This document shows, piece after piece, positions 1,889-17,148 of a stretch of DNA of 40,297 bases; positions within the stretch are counted from its first letter, which is position 1, and every line of letters begins with the position of its first letter. The DNA comes from Rhodospirillaceae bacterium. GTDB lineage: Bacteria > Pseudomonadota > Alphaproteobacteria > UBA7985. The notes under the pieces are model-generated. The model did not search any database. It was not told the origin of the DNA and was given only the letters and a program-made list of their open reading frames with translations. Where the stretch lies: NCBI GenBank assembly GCA_002700865.1, contig PAFB01000141.1:1-40297 (forward strand), written 5' to 3'. The translations under genes were made by a program, and so were the position numbers.

Positions 1889-2515
1889 CTATTCCTCGGA
1901 GATCGTCCCCCGCATGAAGTCGGCCAGGGCCTTGGTATCGAGACCAGTGGGTGAGTTTTCAACCGCGGCCGCAGCGTTAAGCCGGGACTCTGGCGGCTGG
2001 GTTTGATCAAGTTTCCACGTTCCTTCGACCGCTTCGATCTGGAAGCGGTAGGGAACAATTTGGGCCATCAGGCCGTCCATGGGCTTATCTTTGATATCTT
2101 CACTGCGCCATGGGGATTTGCCGTTCACTCTCATCTCAAATTCTGTCGTGAGTTCACTCACGATCCTGCGTAATTCTTGACGGTCTTGCAGGACCACAGT
2201 CCCCTTGATGTGGACAGCCACATAGTTCCACGTCGGACCCTGATGGGGCGCTTGATACCAATCGGGTGAGACATAGCCGTGGGGCCCCTGAATCACGAGG
2301 GTCGCTGTCGTCTTCACGAGGCCGGTGGAAACAATCGCGTTGTTCTGCGCGAGGTGCAGGTCGAACTCGTCGCTTTCGGGATTGAGATGGAAAGGCAGAT
2401 GGCTCACCAGCGTTTCACCTTCAAACGGAACGCACAGCATGCCAAAGCCTGTCTGAGCGGCAAAACGCAGATTTGTATCCCTCGTTGCCTGACGAAATGC
2501 AGGATGCGGGTGCAT
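1889..2515 (-). CDS. PaiB-like FMN-binding negative transcriptional regulator
   Basis: MHPHPAFRQ..., LVSHLPFHLN, TATLVIQGPHGYVSPDWY, PTWNYVAVHIKG match the PaiB family; start chosen at the internal Met of the 1889..2596 ORF. Confidence 0.85.
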   Translation of the reverse strand: MHPHPAFRQATRDTNLRFAAQTGFGMLCVPFEGETLVSHLPFHLNPESDEFDLHLAQNNAIVSTGLVKTTATLVIQGPHGYVSPDWYQAPHQGPTWNYVAVHIKGTVVLQDRQELRRIVSELTTEFEMRVNGKSPWRSEDIKDKPMDGLMAQIVPYRFQIEAVEGTWKLDQTQPPESRLNAAAAVENSPTGLDTKALADFMRGTISEE

Positions 2516-2714
2516 GGCAATTGATCCTTCCAGAACCGCAAAAACCAACTTTGACTGATGGTTTTGCCGTTGTTGGGTCGATGAGGATTTCTTCAATCTT
2601 TAGGGCCGAACCAGGGGGGAAGTATGCCCTGACAAAATCCTCGGCATCAAGCCACACGGTCTTTGTTGCCAGCACCCGGGAGGTCGCGGTTCAATCCTGA
2701 CCGCGCGTCAGATT

Positions 2715-2732
2715 TATATGATTGAACATATA
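2715..2732. promoter_or_regulatory. Palindromic operator candidate TATATG-attgaa-CATATA between paiB-like and marR genes
   Basis: Perfect 6-6-6 inverted repeat about 50 bp upstream of the MarR ATG (2782); same pattern at 8018. Confidence 0.6.
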
Positions 2733-2781
2733 TGTGAAATCATGTTACCCCGACACGCATTCCGCGGAGCGTCGCAAACCC

Positions 2782-3261
2782 ATGAAATTCCACAACATCG
2801 ACAGCGAAACTTTACCGCAAAGCGCCAGCTTTCTGGTCAAGATCATCCATCGAATGAGCACGCTTTTGACGCGCGCTACGACGGCCGAATTTGCGTCTGT
2901 GACCATGTTCAATATCGTTGAATGGCGCGTGGTTTCGCTGCTCTATGCCTTCGGAAACTCCCGGCAGAAGGATTTGGTCGACTTCAGCTTAGCGGATCAG
3001 GCACAGACCAGCCGTGGCCTCGCTGATCTTGAACGCAGCGGGATGGTGCGATCCCTGCCCAGCGGCGACGACCGCCGGGTTAAGAACTTCGAGCTGACTG
3101 AAGAGGGTCGACACGAGGTTGAAGCCGCGCTGCCTGCCATCGTTTCCTACTTCAGCCAGATAGACCAGTCGTTAACCGAGGCGGAAAAAGCAACGCTGAT
3201 TGCCCTGCTCGACCGCATTCTCGATTCCGCAACAAGCAATCGCCAGCCGCCAGAGGGCTAA
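2782..3261 (+). CDS. MarR family transcriptional regulator
   Basis: FNIVEWRVVSLLYAFGNSRQKDLVDFSLADQAQTSRGLADLERSGMVRSLPSGDDRRVKNFELTEEG winged HTH. Confidence 0.88.
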   Translation: MKFHNIDSETLPQSASFLVKIIHRMSTLLTRATTAEFASVTMFNIVEWRVVSLLYAFGNSRQKDLVDFSLADQAQTSRGLADLERSGMVRSLPSGDDRRVKNFELTEEGRHEVEAALPAIVSYFSQIDQSLTEAEKATLIALLDRILDSATSNRQPPEG

Positions 3262-3284
3262 GGCATTTTCAAAAGGAGGGACGC

Positions 3285-4460
3285 ATGCTGCTTACCGTTT
3301 ATTTTATTGTTCTCATCGGACTTGTTTTGGCGGAGTTGACCAAGGGCCTGAGCGCAAACGGCACCCCTCCCATCCTGCAGAAACTGCCCGGCCAGATGCA
3401 CCTTGCCCGCTTCATGTGGTCAAACATCATGCTGATCCGGGTGGTGCTGATCATTGCACTGGTTGCGATGGTGGTTCTGGCCTCAGGCAACGCACGGTGG
3501 GTCATGATCGGCGGCGCTGTGCCCCTTGGCCTGGCTTGGTTCGGTGTCTTCTGGATCTTTGAGAAACTCTGGAACGGGCGGGTCAAATTCCCCGCAATCA
3601 CCCAAAAGGTGTTTGCCACAGCCACGGAAAACGAGCTTGATCTCGATCTGCAGGTGATCGGTGTGGACCACGGCGGCGAGCAAAAGGCTTTTCCCGTCAA
3701 CATGATCACATTCCACCACCAAATCGTCGATCAGGTTGCCGACTTGCCGGTCTGGGTGACGTACTGTGGTCTGTGCCGCAGTGGCCGGGTCTACGACAGC
3801 ACCGTCGATGGTCAGGCACTCGACTTCAAGCTGATCGGTGCGATTTCTTTCAACGCCACCTTTAAGGACAACCAGACCGGTACATGGTGGCGGCAGGAAA
3901 CCGGCGAGGCCGCGAAGGGCAAGCTGGCGGGCCGGGTTCTGGAAGACGTGGCATCCGAGCAGATGACGCTGGGCAACTGGCTCGAGAAGTACCCTTCGAG
4001 CCTGGTTCTGCAGTACGACCCCGCGTTCACCCGGCGCTACAACTTCATCAACAAACTGCACCGGTTTGAAGCGACCAAGCCAGCCTGGCACATGCAGGAA
4101 ACACCGGCGCTGGTCATCGGTGTTGAGAGCAAAGGCACCGCTCGCGGCTACGACTGGGAGCAGCTCAAGTCGCGCGGGATGGTCAATGATGACCTCGGCG
4201 GTGCAAAAATCGTTGTGACCACTGACCCGGAACGGACATCGGCGGCGGCCTATTTGCGAGATGTTGACGGCGAGGCTCTGGACTTCAAGCCCAGCGAAGA
4301 CGGCATGATCGACGAACAGACCGGCTCGACTTGGAACTGGTTCGGCACGTGCCTCGCGGGCAAGATGAAGGGTAAACAGCTCACCCAGTTGCAGAGCTAC
4401 CAGCAATACATTCGCTCGTGGATCACCTTCCACCCTGAAACCAGCTTCTACGACTTCTAA
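3285..4460 (+). CDS. DUF3179 domain-containing membrane protein (copy 1)
   Basis: N-terminal TM helices; WVTYCGLCRSGRVYD, GTWWRQETGEAAKG; follows marR by 23 nt with an aaaggaggg RBS. Confidence 0.82.
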   Translation: MLLTVYFIVLIGLVLAELTKGLSANGTPPILQKLPGQMHLARFMWSNIMLIRVVLIIALVAMVVLASGNARWVMIGGAVPLGLAWFGVFWIFEKLWNGRVKFPAITQKVFATATENELDLDLQVIGVDHGGEQKAFPVNMITFHHQIVDQVADLPVWVTYCGLCRSGRVYDSTVDGQALDFKLIGAISFNATFKDNQTGTWWRQETGEAAKGKLAGRVLEDVASEQMTLGNWLEKYPSSLVLQYDPAFTRRYNFINKLHRFEATKPAWHMQETPALVIGVESKGTARGYDWEQLKSRGMVNDDLGGAKIVVTTDPERTSAAAYLRDVDGEALDFKPSEDGMIDEQTGSTWNWFGTCLAGKMKGKQLTQLQSYQQYIRSWITFHPETSFYDF

Positions 4461-4475
4461 GCCGCTATCCTGACC

Positions 4476-4508
4476 GCGCTGACCGCCCACACCTTCCGCG
4501 GTCAGCGC
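4476..4508. terminator. Convergent intergenic hairpin, possible bidirectional terminator
   Basis: GCGCTGACCGC (4476-4486) / GCGGTCAGCGC (4498-4508) perfect 11-bp inverted repeat between convergent gene ends; no clear T-tract. Confidence 0.45.
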
Positions 4509-6118
4509 GCACCGGCGTCTGCGAGGATAAGGTCAGCGCACTGGTCGGCGATCATCATGGTTGGAGCGCCGGTGTTGCCCGACACCAGCGCCGGCATGAC
4601 CGAGCAATCGGCAACTCGGAGCCCGTCGATGCCACGGACCCGCAACTGCGGATCAAGCACAGCCTTGCTGTCTCCCCCCATGCGGCACGTCCCCGAGGGG
4701 TGGTAGATCGTCCGCGCCTGTTCCCGGATTGCGTCGTCAAGGTTGTTAGAACCCTGCGCCACGCTGATCCCTGGGCCGGGCCATACCTCCTCTGCCACCA
4801 ACTCACGCATTTCAGCCTGATTAAGGATATCACGCGCCAGCCGCACACCGCGGCGCAAGACCTCAAGGTCTTCCGCGTGCCCCAGCGCCTCTGCTTGAAA
4901 CCGCAGGGAGTCACGGGGGTTGGATGATCTCAGCCCCAGCCGCCCCCGGCTCTTGGGTCGCATAGTCATAGGGTGAATTTGCAGCGCGTGAAAGTCCAGC
5001 GGCGGCATGCCCGGCCGACCCGGCGCAAACGGGGCAATATTGTACTGCACATCCGGACGGCCGCTGCCGCCAGTATCGACACAAGCCCCGCCCTGCAGCA
5101 GGTTGGTCGTCAGCAGGCCACGCCGCCGCAGGACATAGTTCAGGCCATGGCCCAAGGCCTTCAATCCTTTATCAGCGCCGTGCAGGCCGACGCTGTCTTT
5201 CATGCGCGCGGTCAGCGGTGCGCCAACGTGGTCCTGATAGTTGTCGCCGACCGCGGGCGCGTCTTCGATAACGTCGATGCCGTGGCGGTCCAGATGCTGC
5301 TTGGGCCCGATGCCGGAGAGCAGCAGCAGCTTGGGAGACTGAAAGCTCCCTGCGGTCAGCACGATTTCGCGCCGCGCCTTGATGAGCACCGGCGCTCCAT
5401 CGCCGTCAAAAGCCTCAACGGCACAGGCCCGCCGGCCCTCGATCCGCAGTCTTGAAACATCCATCCCGGTTAACAGCGACAGATTTTCCCGACCCAGCGC
5501 AGGCCTAAGAAAACAAGTGGCTGCCGACTGGCGTCGCCCTTTGTGGGCTGTAACCTGATACCACCCGACCCCGTCCTGCCGAGCGCCGTTGAAATCTGTA
5601 TTGAGCGGCAAACCGCAGGCGACAGCTGCGTCAATGATCTGCTGAGTTACCGGATGCTTTGTGCTGGGATCATCAACGATGAGCGGGCCGTTCGCGCCAT
5701 GGAACGGGTCATCGCCGAGGCGGGAATTCCGCTCCTGACGTTTGAACACCGGCAAAACATCGGCGTACCCCCATCCTTGGCAACCAAAGTCGCTCACCCA
5801 GTCGTCGTAGTCGCGGGCCTGACCGCGCATATAGATCATGCCATTGACGGACGTTCCCCCGCCAAGCACTCGGCCTTGCGGCACGACAAAAGCGCGGTTT
5901 TCGAGGGTCAGGTCAGGCTCGGAGGTCTGGGCTTCAACATCCTGGCTCTGGATCGCCTTGAAGAAGGTCGCTGGGATGTGAATCCACGGATTACTGTCCT
6001 TCCGCCCACGCTCGACCAGAGCGACGGAGGCCTCGGTATCCTGCGCGAGCCGGGCCGCCAGAACACAGCCCGCAGCACCGCCGCCAACGATGACAAAATC
6101 GAAGTCGAGGGTCTTCAC
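4502..6118 (-). CDS. GMC family oxidoreductase (choline/alcohol dehydrogenase-like)
   Basis: DFVIVGGGAAGCVLAARL, GGGTSVNGMIYMRGQ, IYHPSGTCRMGGDSKAVLDPQLRVRGIDGLRVADCSVMP. Confidence 0.92.
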   Translation of the reverse strand: MKTLDFDFVIVGGGAAGCVLAARLAQDTEASVALVERGRKDSNPWIHIPATFFKAIQSQDVEAQTSEPDLTLENRAFVVPQGRVLGGGTSVNGMIYMRGQARDYDDWVSDFGCQGWGYADVLPVFKRQERNSRLGDDPFHGANGPLIVDDPSTKHPVTQQIIDAAVACGLPLNTDFNGARQDGVGWYQVTAHKGRRQSAATCFLRPALGRENLSLLTGMDVSRLRIEGRRACAVEAFDGDGAPVLIKARREIVLTAGSFQSPKLLLLSGIGPKQHLDRHGIDVIEDAPAVGDNYQDHVGAPLTARMKDSVGLHGADKGLKALGHGLNYVLRRRGLLTTNLLQGGACVDTGGSGRPDVQYNIAPFAPGRPGMPPLDFHALQIHPMTMRPKSRGRLGLRSSNPRDSLRFQAEALGHAEDLEVLRRGVRLARDILNQAEMRELVAEEVWPGPGISVAQGSNNLDDAIREQARTIYHPSGTCRMGGDSKAVLDPQLRVRGIDGLRVADCSVMPALVSGNTGAPTMMIADQCADLILADAGAR

Positions 6119-7983
6119 GGCGTTGCAATCTCAAACCAAAGGTCAAAGCTGTCGTGCAGCGCTAACCAGCGGTCGAACAGCGCCTCGTCGCCGTCAATAT
6201 GGATCTCGCCGGGCTGACCATTCATGCGCGCCTCCAGCGCTTGCCGGGTTGCCGTGACCGTGACGCCCGGCGGGTCTGCCGGGGTGGCGCCGATGCGCGC
6301 GAACTCGGTCTGCCGTGCCACCGTCACAAGGGCATGGCCCTCCGGCAGTTGGAGCAGCAGGCTGAAGGCCTCACCCCGTGCGCGGTCGGGATTGAGGCGA
6401 ATGGCGTAGGCGTCCAGCCAGTCCTTGAGTGAAAGGGTGGCGGCCAGCTCTGCATTCCGGCCACCGGCAGCAGGCAGCGCCCTGACACCCTGCTCTAGTT
6501 CTTGAGCGCCAGCGAGGCAGATATTGCGCTCGATCCCGCTTTCCGCGCGGTAAGCCATGTTGCGGTAAATTTCACTCAGCAGCGACTTGGCTTCCTGGCT
6601 GGGGTCTCCGGCAAAGACCACATGATTGACCAGCGTTGCCGCCCACTGCAGGTCGTCCTGCTCCACCGCTTCCCGAGCCAGTTCAAGCACCCTTTGCTCG
6701 CCACCCAGCGCCTTAAGATAGCGCTCACCTTCCGCTGCAGGCGACAGCGGATTGAGGTCAACCGGACGGCCATCGAAGGCGCCGTAATACTTCTGATAGA
6801 CCGCGCGGGCGTTGAAAGGGAGCATCCCATAGTAGCCCCGAACATGCAGCGCCTCACAGGCGAAATCCGGTTCCTGCAGGGCTTGTCCAACCTCCTTGAT
6901 GGTCATGCCATGGTTGGCCAAACGCAGGGTTTGGTCATGGATATATTTGTAGATATCCCGCTGTTCCAACATGAATTCTTGCACCAACTCCCGTCCCCAG
7001 ACCGGCCAGTTGTGTGAATTGATCAGGACCTGTGTGCGGTCTCCGAACCGGACGAGCGCTTCGTCGATTACCCGCGCCCACAGCCGAGCATCGCGTACTT
7101 CCGCACCCCTTGGGGTCAGCAGGTTGTGCTGGGTCTGCGTGCAAACCTCGGCCATGCACAGCACGCCTTGCTCGGGCAGGAAAAAGGTAAACTCTGCAGG
7201 GGCCTCTGTGCCGGAGCCCATCAGGAACTCGAAGGCGACACCATCGATATGGACCGAAGGCTCGTTCTCACCGATTTCCCGCGTCGGCTCACGGAAACCG
7301 CGATAGCCGCGCGCCACCGTTTTACCAATGCCACCGTCGACCAGCCCCTCGGGTCCAAATGGCAGGGCAAGGCCAAACTGGTCGATGGCTCGCCGCGAGG
7401 TGTGATTGCCGCCAAGCACACCTTCAGCCGCGGCGTAGTTCATGAATTCCTCGGGCACGTAAATCGGAATGTCGTCCCCCTCGCCCACAACGCCGCCCAA
7501 ACCACCGAAATGATCCGCGTGCGTGTGCGTCACCAGAACCGCGCTCACCGGCCTGTGGCCCAAGGTGTCGTTGACCAGCTTGAGCGAGGCTTGAGCGGTT
7601 TCCCGAGTCAGTAGCGGATCAACGATGATCCAACCGCTGGCACCCGCAATGATGCTCATATTGGCATAGTCGGCAGCCCGCACCTGCCAAACACCGTCCG
7701 TGACTTCGAACAACCCACTGATCGCATTCAACTGCGCGTGGCGCCAAAGCGAGGGGTTTACGGTCTCGGGGCAGTCTTCCTGCAAGAACGAAAACCAGGC
7801 CGGGTCCCACGCCTTGCCACCATCTGCGCGACCGATCCCACCTGCGGGTAAATCCGCGATCTTGCCCCGCTCTGCAGCCTCAGAAATGGTCGGATTATCG
7901 AGGTTCAAACGCTTTCGAACCCGAGCGTTGAACTGCCGGGTCGAACTGTACACGCGTGTCGTCAATTGCTTTACTTTCCCCAC
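6115..7983 (-). CDS. SdsA1/BDS1-type alkylsulfatase (MBL fold)
   Basis: VTHTHADHFGGLGG, HNLLTPRGAEVRD, INSHNWPVWG; length about 620 aa with C-terminal SCP2-like region. Confidence 0.88.
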   Translation of the reverse strand: MGKVKQLTTRVYSSTRQFNARVRKRLNLDNPTISEAAERGKIADLPAGGIGRADGGKAWDPAWFSFLQEDCPETVNPSLWRHAQLNAISGLFEVTDGVWQVRAADYANMSIIAGASGWIIVDPLLTRETAQASLKLVNDTLGHRPVSAVLVTHTHADHFGGLGGVVGEGDDIPIYVPEEFMNYAAAEGVLGGNHTSRRAIDQFGLALPFGPEGLVDGGIGKTVARGYRGFREPTREIGENEPSVHIDGVAFEFLMGSGTEAPAEFTFFLPEQGVLCMAEVCTQTQHNLLTPRGAEVRDARLWARVIDEALVRFGDRTQVLINSHNWPVWGRELVQEFMLEQRDIYKYIHDQTLRLANHGMTIKEVGQALQEPDFACEALHVRGYYGMLPFNARAVYQKYYGAFDGRPVDLNPLSPAAEGERYLKALGGEQRVLELAREAVEQDDLQWAATLVNHVVFAGDPSQEAKSLLSEIYRNMAYRAESGIERNICLAGAQELEQGVRALPAAGGRNAELAATLSLKDWLDAYAIRLNPDRARGEAFSLLLQLPEGHALVTVARQTEFARIGATPADPPGVTVTATRQALEARMNGQPGEIHIDGDEALFDRWLALHDSFDLWFEIATP

Positions 7984-8017
7984 CAGAACTTATTGCCAAA
8001 AATTACCATGACGGGAC

Positions 8018-8037
8018 ATATATGCCTATTCATATAT
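8018..8037. promoter_or_regulatory. Palindromic operator candidate ATATATG-cctatt-CATATAT between alkylsulfatase and VOC genes
   Basis: Perfect 7-6-7 inverted repeat 35-54 bp upstream of the alkylsulfatase start; same architecture as 2715-2732. Confidence 0.6.
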
Positions 8038-8177: not shown

Positions 8178-8567
8178 ATGATTGGTTATCTTATGGTCGG
8201 TACAAACGACTTGGCTCGGTCCTTAAGCTTTTACGATGCTGTATTCGCGCCGCTTGGTTATCAGAAAGTCAAAACCAAGGAGCGTTACGTGGCCTATGGC
8301 AACCCTGAAACCGGCGGTCGTTCTGAGTTCTATGTCACCGGTCCCTTTGACAAAAAACCCGCAACGGCTGGAAACGGCACGATGGTCGCGCTGCCAGTGC
8401 CAACGCTTCAGATACTGCACGATATCTACGAGATCGCAGGAAACAGTGGTGGCCTTCAGGATGGCGCTCCCGGCCCCCGAGTGGCAAACAGCCCCACGCA
8501 CTACGCCTATGTCAGAGACCCGGAAGGTAACAAGCTGGCTTTCTACTGTGACGATCCAACGGCCTGA
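8178..8567 (+). CDS. VOC (glyoxalase/bleomycin resistance) family protein
   Basis: MIGYLMVGTNDLARSLSFYDAVFAPLGYQ ... YVRDPEGNKLAFYCDDP. Confidence 0.9.
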   Translation: MIGYLMVGTNDLARSLSFYDAVFAPLGYQKVKTKERYVAYGNPETGGRSEFYVTGPFDKKPATAGNGTMVALPVPTLQILHDIYEIAGNSGGLQDGAPGPRVANSPTHYAYVRDPEGNKLAFYCDDPTA

Positions 8568-8671: not shown

Positions 8672-9589
8672 CTATCCTGCCTCATCCCCTTCCGTCAGCT
8701 CCTGCACCAAGAAATCAACCGCGACTTTGGTTTTCATCAGTCGGTATTTTGGCTGAAGGTAGAGGAGATAGGTGCCGGTTTCTTCGTTGCGGGACAAAGC
8801 CAATTTACTGTCTTCGAGGATGAGTATTTGCAGAAGTCCGCTGGCGACCTGCTCTTTGATCGCCCAGCCGGGAACGACCGCCAGCCCATTCCCAGCCTCC
8901 GCCTCGGCAACCAGCTCCTTACCGATGTTGCAGATGAACGTGGGATTGGTCTTGATTTCTGCCCATCCGCCGGCGGTCTTGGCTTGCCAGTAAACGATGC
9001 GGTCAGGGCCGCGGTAAAGGAGTGTTCGGTGGTTCTGGAGGTCGTCGAGACAGCGGGGATATCCATGCTTTGACAGATAAGCCGGAGCCGCGACCAGTAC
9101 GTATTGATTGCTGTTCAGCCGCCGCGCAATTGCCCGCTGCGGCGGACTTGCTGTGGCTCGAATGGCAATATCGATTTCATCACTGGTCAAATCCGTCACC
9201 TGATCGGTCAAATCCAGATCAACGACAAGCCCCGGGTAACGCTGCCGCATGCGACGCAGCGCCGGGACAAGCCGGTATTCGCCATACCCGGCAAGCGCTG
9301 AAATCCGAAGCGTCCCTGTTGGGGAATCCAGGTGATGTTTCACCAGTTCATTCGCATAGCGCAGATCATCGAGGGTCGGTCGAACCCGATCGAGGTAGAG
9401 TTGGCCTAGTTCAGTCAGGCGTACCACGCGGGTCGTTCGGCTGAGTAGAATCACGCCCAACTCCTCCTCCAAATCTTGCAGGCGGCGAGATACCGACGAA
9501 GCGGGTACACCCAGAGCCCGCGCAGCTTCGGCAAAGCTTCTCAGTTCGGCTACTTTGATGAAACAACTGATAGCGCGTAGCTGGTCCAT
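8672..9589 (-). CDS. LysR family transcriptional regulator
   Basis: MDQLRAISCFIKVAELRSFAEAARALGVPASSVSRRLQDLEEELGVILLSRTTR; start chosen at the internal Met. Confidence 0.93.
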   Translation of the reverse strand: MDQLRAISCFIKVAELRSFAEAARALGVPASSVSRRLQDLEEELGVILLSRTTRVVRLTELGQLYLDRVRPTLDDLRYANELVKHHLDSPTGTLRISALAGYGEYRLVPALRRMRQRYPGLVVDLDLTDQVTDLTSDEIDIAIRATASPPQRAIARRLNSNQYVLVAAPAYLSKHGYPRCLDDLQNHRTLLYRGPDRIVYWQAKTAGGWAEIKTNPTFICNIGKELVAEAEAGNGLAVVPGWAIKEQVASGLLQILILEDSKLALSRNEETGTYLLYLQPKYRLMKTKVAVDFLVQELTEGDEAG

Positions 9590-9716
9590 TGATCCTAATC
9601 TCCAAGGGATGATTATTGCTGTTTTAGCAATTAACTTCACAAGAAACCGCTATGTTATCGCTCTTTTGCGCTCTTATATACAGAATATGCTAACAATTGA
9701 GACACTGGAAGACCTT

Positions 9717-10691
9717 ATGAAAGTCATCGAATACAACCGGATTGGTAATCCAGCCGACGTCCTTGAGATCAAGGAAGTACCCTCGCGTGCGCCGGCGGGC
9801 GGGTGAAGTTCGCGTGCAGGTTCTGGCGACCCCCATTCACCCGTCCAACTTGCTTCAGATTGCCGGTCTGTACGGCACCATGGCAACGTTTCCGTCGACC
9901 CCGGGTGCCGAAGGCGTCGGTGCGGTGGTGGAGATTGGTGAAGGTGTCAGTCATTTGCAGGCAGGCCAAAAGGTATTGCTGGCAGGTGTTGGCGGCACAT
10001 GGCGCGAAGAGATTACAGCACCGGCACAGGCTTTCATCCCTGTTCCCGATGGCGATCTGGACCAACTGTCCATGGCAGTCATCAACCCCATGACCGCTCA
10101 TTTACTTCTCACCGCAATAACAGACCTGAAAGAGGGCGATTGGATCATCCAGAGTGCGGCGAATTCAGCGGTTGGCGAATACCTGATTCAATTGGCGGCG
10201 CAGAGGGGCATCAATACGATCAACGCGGTGCGACGCGAAAGCTGGCCCCTGAGCTTAAGTCACTGGGTGCAACTGTTGTTCTGGTCGATGGGCCCAATCT
10301 GGTTGACGAGGCGCAAGCGGCGACCGGCGGCGCTGACATTGTTTACGGCATTGACAGCGTGGGTGGAGAAACCTTTTCCCGGATGTTACAAACCCTGTGC
10401 TTCGGCGGAACCCTTGCTTCCTATGGCTTGCTGTCAATGCAGCAACCTTCACTGGATCTGTCCAAAGTCATTTTCAACGATATTCGTGTCAAAGGCTTTT
10501 GATTGGCCAAATGGTTTGAAACCGCTTCTCCCGAAGACAAACAAACAGCGTTTGGCACGATCATCCCGCTCATCGCAGGCGGCAGCATCAAATCGACCAT
10601 CGACGCCCGCTTCAAGCTTGAAGACATCGCCAAAGCGGTGACTCGGGCAGGAGAGTCAGGACGCGGCGGCAAAGTGCTTTTGACGCCTTGA
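9717..10691 (+). pseudogene. Zinc-independent MDR / quinone oxidoreductase-like gene, disrupted
   Basis: MKVIEYNRIGNPADVLEIKEVPSRAPAG / GEVRVQVLATPIHPSNLLQIAG...NAVRRE / LAPELKSLGATVVLVDG...FNDIRVKGF* / LAKWFETASPEDK split over two frames plus a TGA at 10500-10502. Confidence 0.85.
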
Positions 10692-10767
10692 TTGACGTCA
10701 AGGCCGGGCGGTGCGCCCTTCACAGCGCCGCCCGGCAGACCGCGACTTGAGCGCGTACGCCGCGCGG

Positions 10768-14045: not shown

Positions 14046-15218
14046 TCAGAACTCGTAAAACGTGGTATTGCCGTGAAAGGTAATCCAACTGCGGACGAAT
14101 TGCTGATAGCTTTGCACCAAAGTCAGCTGCTGCCCCTTAAGTGCGCCCTCTGTGCACTGGCCGAAATGGTTCCACATGGACCCTGTTCCGAGGTCACGAA
14201 TACCCGCTTCAGTGCGCTCGAATTCCAGAATTTCAGCGCCATGCCTGCGGTCGTACACAAACCCGGACGTCTGGTCAGGGTCGACCAGAACGAGCAGGGC
14301 ATGGTCTCCGACTTGATCCTGCACGAGACCCCTTCCCTGCAACTGGGACCAGTCGTAGGCGCGGGCGTGCTCGCCCAAGTCGACGCCAATGACCAAAGGC
14401 GGCGAACCGACCATGTGCCAGGCGGGTTTGCTGGCCTCGTAGTTGAGCAGCTTGCCGAAGAACTCGTATCGGTGCGTGAAGGTCGGGTCATACTGCAAGA
14501 CCAGCGACTCAGGGTACTTTGTCAGCCAATTACCCAAGGTCATCTGCTCACAGGGGTAATCCTCAAGAACGCGTCCCTTCAGCGGTCCTTTTGCGGCCTC
14601 ACCGGTCTCCTGCCGCCACCAGGTACCGGTTTCACTGTCCCGGAAGGTGGCATTGAAGGAAACCGCGCCAACCAGTGTCAGCGTCAGCGGTCGGCCATCA
14701 ACCACGGTGTCATAAACCCGGCCACTCTGGCACAGGCCACAGTACGTGATCCACAGCGGCTTGTTGCCGACGGTATCGGGGATTTGGTGGTGCCAGTAGA
14801 CCATATTTGCCGGGAAGGCCTTGGCCTCGCCGTCAACGACAACCCCAATGATTTGCAGCCCAAGATCGACCTTGTTTTCAGCAGCGCCAACGAAGGTTTT
14901 CTGCGTGATCAGCGGAAACTTGATCCGGCCAACCCACCAACGATTGAACAACCAATAGACCCCCAACCAGAGCGCCAGCAGTGGCACAGCCCAGAGAACC
15001 ATGCTCAGGCGATCCGCCGCTGGGACCAGCAGCGCAGAACCAGCGATGGCCAGTCCGGCCACCACGCGCATCGCGCCAATGGTGGACCACATGAAGTAGG
15101 CGAGATCCATCTGCCAGGAAAAACGCTGCAGGACGGGCGGCGTGCCGTTGGCGCTGAGGCCCTTGATCAACTCCAAGGCAGCGATAAGCAATAGCAGGAC
15201 GACAAATACGGTAAGCAC
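14046..15218 (-). CDS. DUF3179 domain-containing membrane protein (copy 2)
   Basis: Clear paralogue of 3285..4460: KGLSANGTPP, ITYCGLCQSGRVYD, GTWWRQETGEAAKG, SYQQFVRSWITFH. Confidence 0.82.
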   Translation of the reverse strand: MLTVFVVLLLLIAALELIKGLSANGTPPVLQRFSWQMDLAYFMWSTIGAMRVVAGLAIAGSALLVPAADRLSMVLWAVPLLALWLGVYWLFNRWWVGRIKFPLITQKTFVGAAENKVDLGLQIIGVVVDGEAKAFPANMVYWHHQIPDTVGNKPLWITYCGLCQSGRVYDTVVDGRPLTLTLVGAVSFNATFRDSETGTWWRQETGEAAKGPLKGRVLEDYPCEQMTLGNWLTKYPESLVLQYDPTFTHRYEFFGKLLNYEASKPAWHMVGSPPLVIGVDLGEHARAYDWSQLQGRGLVQDQVGDHALLVLVDPDQTSGFVYDRRHGAEILEFERTEAGIRDLGTGSMWNHFGQCTEGALKGQQLTLVQSYQQFVRSWITFHGNTTFYEF

Positions 15219-16380: not shown

Positions 16381-17148
16381 CTACAGCTCCTGTGCGATTG
16401 GACTGGTGTGCCGAAGCTGGCGTGTCGATTGCGCAAGGTTAAAGCTCACAGACCCCATGCGAAGCACTTCTTCATGGAAGACGATTTTGCCGTCATCGTC
16501 GAAAGCCGAGCACGCTTGCTTGAGCAGCGGCTGGCCCACCGGCATGGCAAACATCTCTGCCAGCGGCGCGTCAGCCAGAATCGGGCTGATGTCCTCACAA
16601 GCCGCCGACCATGTCAGAGCGAAACGGTCACTCAGGATGCGCAGGATCGACTGATTGGGGCCAAGCTCGGGAAAATCTTCCGGGCGCGCGCCGTCGAGAT
16701 ACTGGGTTGGCGCGTAAGTTTGGACGAGCATGCTGGGCCGATTATCCACCAGCCGCAGCCGCACAACACGCGTGACCGGCAGCGCTCTCAACTCAGCAGG
16801 CAGCGCCGCAAGACTGGGGTCATCGGGTGCAAAGTGATCGATCGAAATGAACTTGGACCGCGGCTCGAGACCCGCCCGCAACATGGCGTCGGTAAAGGAC
16901 GTCAGACAGGTGTCGGAGGCTGGCGTCAGCGTGATCACCCGGTAGCCGCTACCCTGGCGGCTCTCGACGTAACCATCCTGAATCAGCATATCGAGCGCGC
17001 GTCGGATGGTTACCCGGCTCACACCGAATTGCCCGGCCAATTCCACTTCGGTCGGCACGCGTCCACCAACTGGATAATGCCCGTCTTTCAGTCGTTTGAG
17101 GATCGAGCGGTAGGTACGCTCGTACTTTGGCACGCTATCAGTTTCCAT
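16381..17148 (-). CDS. GntR family transcriptional regulator (HutC/UTRA type)
   Basis: YPVGGRVPTEVELAGQFGVSRVTIRRALDMLIQDGYVESRQGSGYRV plus UTRA-like C-terminus. Confidence 0.93.
   Translation of the reverse strand: METDSVPKYERTYRSILKRLKDGHYPVGGRVPTEVELAGQFGVSRVTIRRALDMLIQDGYVESRQGSGYRVITLTPASDTCLTSFTDAMLRAGLEPRSKFISIDHFAPDDPSLAALPAELRALPVTRVVRLRLVDNRPSMLVQTYAPTQYLDGARPEDFPELGPNQSILRILSDRFALTWSAACEDISPILADAPLAEMFAMPVGQPLLKQACSAFDDDGKIVFHEEVLRMGSVSFNLAQSTRQLRHTSPIAQEL

Follow-up and report, generated by a model that had tools for sequence, protein, structure and literature searches.

A predicted 30-bp operator shared by the promoters of a MarR-family regulator gene and an alkylsulfatase gene pair in a Rhodospirillaceae bacterium

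The DNA analyzed here, referred to as the window, is a stretch of 40,297 nucleotides from a Rhodospirillaceae bacterium (assembly GCA_002700865.1, contig PAFB01000141.1, positions 1 to 40,297 of the forward strand). Two of its intergenic regions carry the same 30-base-pair (bp) unit. The first copy (2715..2744, + strand) lies upstream of marR (2782..3261, +), which codes for a MarR-family regulator of 159 amino acids and is followed by a gene for a membrane-anchored-looking DUF3179 protein (3285..4460, +; Pfam DUF3179, 191 bits). The second copy (8007..8036, - strand) precedes alkS (6115..7983, -), which codes for a type III alkylsulfatase resembling SdsA1 and YjcS, and alkS in turn is followed by a gene for a GMC flavoprotein oxidoreductase (4502..6118, -; Pfam GMC_oxred_N and C). 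At the level of sequence, both copies of the unit are exact, they point to marR and alkS, and the unit is kept in front of marR in related genomes. The explanation that we favor, with a probability of roughly 0.75, is that the two copies represent one operator recognized by the MarR protein and controlling marR, presumably together with the DUF3179 gene, as well as alkS-GMC.

A 30-bp unit in two promoters

A first-pass annotation of this DNA had pointed out a palindrome, TATATG-N6-CATATA, in two divergent promoters, with shared arms and spacer length and differing spacer sequences. Both copies are indeed exact and lie at 2715-2732 and 8019-8036 (8018-8037 counting the outer A/T pair). With up to two mismatches, three matches occur in the window, a number not reached in any of 100 shuffles, which gave an expectation of 0.19.

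The isolated 18-bp palindrome proposed as the binding site is thus present letter for letter, but it forms part of a larger site of about 30-33 bp with three half-sites. Both palindromes are the left parts of an asymmetric 30-bp unit, TATATG-N6-CATATATG-N6-CATG, with 18 fixed positions. Unit 1 reads TATATG-ATTGAA-CATATATG-TGAAAT-CATG, with an extended consensus reaching to 2747, and unit 2, read on the coding strand of alkS, is TATATG-AATAGG-CATATATG-TCCCGT-CATG; each agrees with the fixed positions in 18/18. The unit was followed through six congeneric genomes, namely this one and five sisters. Two of the sisters, here called G001 and G004, carry it in their marR promoters, as TATATG TATAGT CATATATG TAGGGT CATG and TATATG TTTTCA CATATATG TATAGT CATG, respectively, so that all 18 fixed positions are exact in 4/4 sites. 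A search of the six genomes at up to three mismatches returned these four exact copies and a single further match, an opposite-strand self-overlap of unit 1 with three mismatches. The reversed control of the unit gave no match at this threshold. No further copy that would indicate a wider regulon was found in this genome at up to three mismatches, and 385 genomes sampled from the class contained two-mismatch look-alikes scattered among them and no other exact copy. From base composition, about 1e-5 exact units would be expected per genome.

Across the four sites, 21/30 positions inside the unit are invariant compared to 3/60 in the flanks, and inclusion of the extra invariant bases yields the consensus TATATG-N2-T-N3-CATATATGT-N4-TCATG-N-TA. 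Because the flanks have diverged while the unit was kept, it is, by sequence comparison, a phylogenetic footprint. The differing spacers and flanks also speak against the idea that one promoter was recently copied to the other location, and they favor selection acting on the half-sites. With the exact unit at both promoters and an empty control, the idea of a dimeric-repressor-like site common to the two promoters holds up, and the unit is almost certainly a real operator.

The MarR regulator and its predicted targets

The regulator contains a MarR winged-helix domain (PF01047, 36.7 bits, above the curated cut-off of 24.6) and its best structural relatives are MarR chains in the PDB (E 9e-10); a single-sequence structure model is of low confidence (predicted local distance difference test score, pLDDT, 44). 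Orthologs exist in G001 and G004 (68% and 65% identity, respectively) and in none of the other three sisters, all of which also lack the unit, so that its presence matches that of marR in 6/6 genomes. In each of the three genomes with this marR, the unit lies 37-39 bp before the start codon (37 bp in the window), and the presumed recognition-helix residues DQAQTSR are identical in all three proteins. Elsewhere in the class, no unit was detected near MarR genes that are more distant from this one. Since the unit tracks the marR orthologs at a fixed distance, goes along with the same recognition helix and is missing from distant MarR genes, it carries the classical signature of autoregulation and is best read as an autoregulatory MarR operator. 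A palindromic operator in its own promoter, as is typical of the MarR family, is supported here by sequence and conservation. The first-pass annotation had named MarR as the obvious candidate, and this protein is very probably the binder of both units.

Possible plasmid orthologs of the MarR protein were discarded, as their identity stayed below 35%. In another sister (G003, L074:5138-5175), a distant MarR gene with 24% identity is directly preceded by CATGATAGTTCATATATG, in which two half-sites out of the three can be recognized; this element is perhaps a related operator.

The gap between marR and the DUF3179 gene is only 23 bp and contains the ribosome-binding sequence AAAGGAGG, and the two genes probably share one transcript. 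A second DUF3179 gene of the window (14046-15218, -), paralogous to the one behind marR, is without a MarR unit, and there is almost no literature on DUF3179.

In the alkS product, the three Pfam domains Lactamase_B, Alkyl_sulf_dimr and Alkyl_sulf_C all score above cut-off, and a metallo-beta-lactamase motif, THTHADHFGG at residue 152, conforms to THxHxDHxGG. The published full motif, which includes Ex18AEx44H, is not matched letter for letter, since counting by hand gave x17 where x18 is expected. PSdsA, sec-alkylsulfatase, YjcS and SdsA1 are the best relatives in the PDB, and the alignment to PSdsA extends over the full length. Translation of alkS may start at GTG 7983 or TTG 7965, 23 or 41 bp from unit 2, respectively; the TTG is preceded by a better ribosome-binding sequence and its distance is near that found at marR. 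The GMC gene and the end of alkS have 4 bp in common. Its product is a putative alcohol oxidation enzyme, and by analogy the alkS-GMC pair matches the SlfS-SlfH steps from alkyl sulfate to alcohol and aldehyde. With unit 2 pointing to alkS and the DUF3179 gene closely behind marR, both proposed targets, alkylsulfatase-GMC and DUF3179, appear likely in this genome. For alkS in particular, control by this MarR is a likely consequence of the sequence arrangement.

The other two proposed members of the regulon fare less well. A gene for a PaiB-like FMN-binding protein (1889..2596, -; Pfam FMN_bind_2) is divergent from marR; its true start is probably an ATG near 2515, and no counterpart was found in the G001 and G004 neighborhoods. 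An open reading frame (ORF) for a VOC/glyoxalase-like protein (8178..8567, +), a label taken over from the first-pass annotation, is divergent from alkS and begins 141 bp from unit 2. It gave no Pfam or NCBIfam match at 1e-3. As targets, PaiB and VOC are weakly supported, and conservation does not speak for them: the unit faces marR and alkS, and the sister genomes have glutathione S-transferase (GST) and carboxymuconolactone-decarboxylase-family genes as divergent partners instead. The original interpretation is thus partly supported: its core, MarR and two promoters, is right, and its target list goes too far.

Several further features surround these genes. A short ORF at 2424-2675 (-), MLATKTVWLDAEDFVRAYFPPGSALKIEEILIDP..., located between marR and the PaiB-like gene in a frame other than that of PaiB, has no Pfam match; it may be a small gene of its own or the 5' part of a gene displaced by a frameshift. 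The VOC-like protein shares 39% identity with an ORF on L033, a Paracoccaceae contig that combines a MarR gene with a VOC gene; this contig was rejected as a parallel, since its neighborhood is unrelated and has no site. A zinc-type alcohol dehydrogenase/quinone reductase gene at 9720-10700 (+) appears to be split among three frames (ORFs 9555-9806, 9742-10641 and 9999-10502), as expected of a pseudogene or a sequencing error. In contig C13 of the assembly (G000:C13), matches come in mirrored pairs whose coordinates sum to a constant; the contig resembles an inverted self-duplication and is probably an assembly artefact.

Sister genomes and competing explanations

The alkS-GMC pair is kept in G001 and G004 with about 80% identity, in a different setting. 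The divergent neighbors of marR in G004 are three GST genes, and among solved structures LigF is closest to the first of them; next comes a gene of the carboxymuconolactone-decarboxylase family divergent from alkS-GMC, and the DUF3179 gene is convergent to GMC. G001 also has GST genes divergent from marR, and its alkS-GMC-DUF3179 genes are found on a different contig. The sister alkS genes are divergent from the carboxymuconolactone-decarboxylase-family gene, not from a VOC gene. Their promoters contain two GGATCC boxes exactly 62 bp apart (L073:8387-8454 in G001; L071:10657-10724 in G004). The same pair recurs in both sisters between a GntR/FCD gene and a row of GST, aldehyde dehydrogenase (ALDH), GST and short-chain dehydrogenase/reductase (SDR) genes (L125:2763-2830 and L126:2472-2539), to which a second alkylsulfatase-like gene is convergent. 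From its position, the GGATCC pair looks like the operator of the sister GntR protein. It is absent from this genome's assembly, which is 73% complete, and the best relative of the GntR/FCD protein here is about 30% identical, compared to 89% between G001 and G004. The economical reading of this comparison is that the operon was conserved while its operator, and its regulator, apparently changed; the missing 27% of the assembly is the main caveat. These rows of GST genes with SDR and ALDH genes near alkylsulfatase genes in G004 (L071:7386-9897) and G001 (L125:2938-6847), one of the GSTs having the beta-etherase LigF as its closest solved structure, possibly form an ether- or lignin-type degradation set in the genus.

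Some of the evidence weighs against MarR control of both promoters. The MarR unit is absent from the G001 and G004 alkS promoters, where the best match has 4 mismatches of 12. The alkS copy is therefore found in this genome only (n = 1), and control of alkS by this MarR appears, from these sequences, to be particular to this genome among those compared. No more than three marR orthologs were available for the comparison. The genome-wide counts of the bare palindrome, obtained by pattern searches of the assembly (2.32 Mb) with the reversed pattern as control, are of little help. The whole-genome search suggested earlier did return the two known sites and nothing else at up to one mismatch; the reversed control, however, also gave two matches, and at up to three mismatches the counts are alike (136 vs 121). 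Given these controls, the bare palindrome was rejected as proof, being suggestive and not conclusive. Further targets may be missing from the incomplete assembly. Finally, two dimers on the unit are proposed from its layout, in which the third half-site, CATGNTA, departs from CATATA.

The strongest competitor, still improbable, assigns the unit to another regulator that controls both marR and alkS, for instance the LysR protein encoded at 8672-9640 or the GntR protein encoded at 16381-17148. LysR proteins control known alkylsulfatases, as in the case of SdsB, 105 bp separate the VOC gene from the LysR gene behind it, and GntR operators are likewise palindromes. A tblastn search, however, revealed no homolog of this LysR or GntR next to the unit and marR in G001 and G004. 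The presence of the unit follows that of marR, though other genes could have the same presence pattern.

Slightly less probable again is that true autoregulation takes place at the marR copy, with the alkS copy being either a remnant of rearrangement or a site acting on VOC. The gene order around marR, DUF3179 and alkS is rearranged between this genome and G004, and the alkS copy is without a counterpart in the sisters. Yet this copy, whose spacers and flanks are unlike those of the marR copy, has all 18 fixed positions and the extra invariant bases intact, and it is oriented to alkS as the marR copy is to marR. That the matches are mere chance products of an AT-rich promoter or core-promoter elements is very hard to believe: TATATG does resemble a -10 box and the reversed palindrome is equally frequent in this genome at up to one mismatch, but the N6-N6 spacing is fixed, no sigma-70 promoter match was found near the sites, and the 30-bp unit has its four exact copies all upstream of marR or alkS with an empty control.

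Proposed mechanism and known systems

If MarR recognizes both units, one dimer would bind TATATG-N6-CATATA and a second one the overlapping TATATG-N6-CATGNTA, located 14 bp further and using the common central CATATATG, so that the half-sites would be arranged as TATATG, N6, CATATATG, N6 and CATGNTA. The bound dimers would cover the promoter or start region and block transcription of marR-DUF3179 and alkS-GMC. A small ligand, for which a pathway substrate or product (alkyl sulfate, fatty alcohol, aldehyde) is a better candidate than a peroxide, would release MarR, and alkyl sulfates would be hydrolyzed and the alcohol oxidized only when needed. Occupation by two dimers is about an even bet, or slightly less, and an effector from the alkyl-sulfate pathway is a tentative suggestion. 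Redox sensing as in OhrR/EstR is unlikely because the MarR protein contains no cysteine; the N-terminal sensing cysteine of this sub-group is missing from it and from both orthologs. More doubtful is the combined proposal that two dimers, offset by 14 bp, occupy the three-half-site operator and that alkS-GMC, with enzymes about 80% identical, was switched within the genus from a GntR/FCD regulator with a GGATCC pair to MarR through exchange of the operator.

These considerations provide a concrete two-promoter regulon and a 30-bp operator, both predicted, for an uncharacterized MarR protein. They also tie an alkylsulfatase-GMC pair to a MarR regulator; literature searches on alkylsulfatases with MarR, and on MarR with CATATATG, turned up nothing relevant. 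If the sister comparison holds, it offers a small and clean example of a catabolic operon that was conserved while its regulator was replaced. Apart from this twist it is ordinary bacterial gene control, of little surprise to a specialist in bacterial regulation.

Among characterized enzymes, SdsA1 of Pseudomonas aeruginosa and YjcS of Escherichia coli share the domain architecture of the alkS product over the full length, and alkS is about 40% identical to characterized or plasmid-borne type III alkylsulfatases. Control of sdsA is of the LysR type. The slf module of the Psychrobacter plasmid pP62BP1 likewise pairs a type III alkylsulfatase with a GMC oxidoreductase, for which the conversion of alkyl sulfate to alcohol and aldehyde was proposed (PMC3346939). 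It differs in having the AraC-family regulator SlfR and an operon with aldehyde dehydrogenase and acyl-CoA ligase genes, whereas alkS-GMC stands alone behind a predicted MarR operator.

On the regulatory side, a close example is EstR-estC of Agrobacterium tumefaciens, in which an alphaproteobacterial MarR-family repressor controls its own gene and a neighboring hydrolase gene via palindromic operators that overlap the promoters (PMC5201249). The system predicted here resembles it in the type of regulator, the targets (its own gene and a hydrolase) and the palindromic operators. The EstR operators are, however, of the GTTATCGCGATAAC type and form two separate sites in one intergenic region, in contrast to the three-half-site TATATG/CATATATG units in two intergenic regions, and EstR senses hydroperoxide via Cys16, in contrast to the cysteine-free MarR. 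Operators of the same length as the present unit are known from two other proteins. On a 30-bp duplex, the MarR protein Rv2887 forms two dimers, chains A/B and chains C/D, and each of them bends the DNA (PMC5526998). QacR of the TetR family places two dimers on overlapping palindromes (PMC6018408), and both arrangements take up about 28-30 bp. The layout of the unit, with its 14-bp offset and the shared CATATATG, suggests that a similar two-dimer occupancy may apply here.

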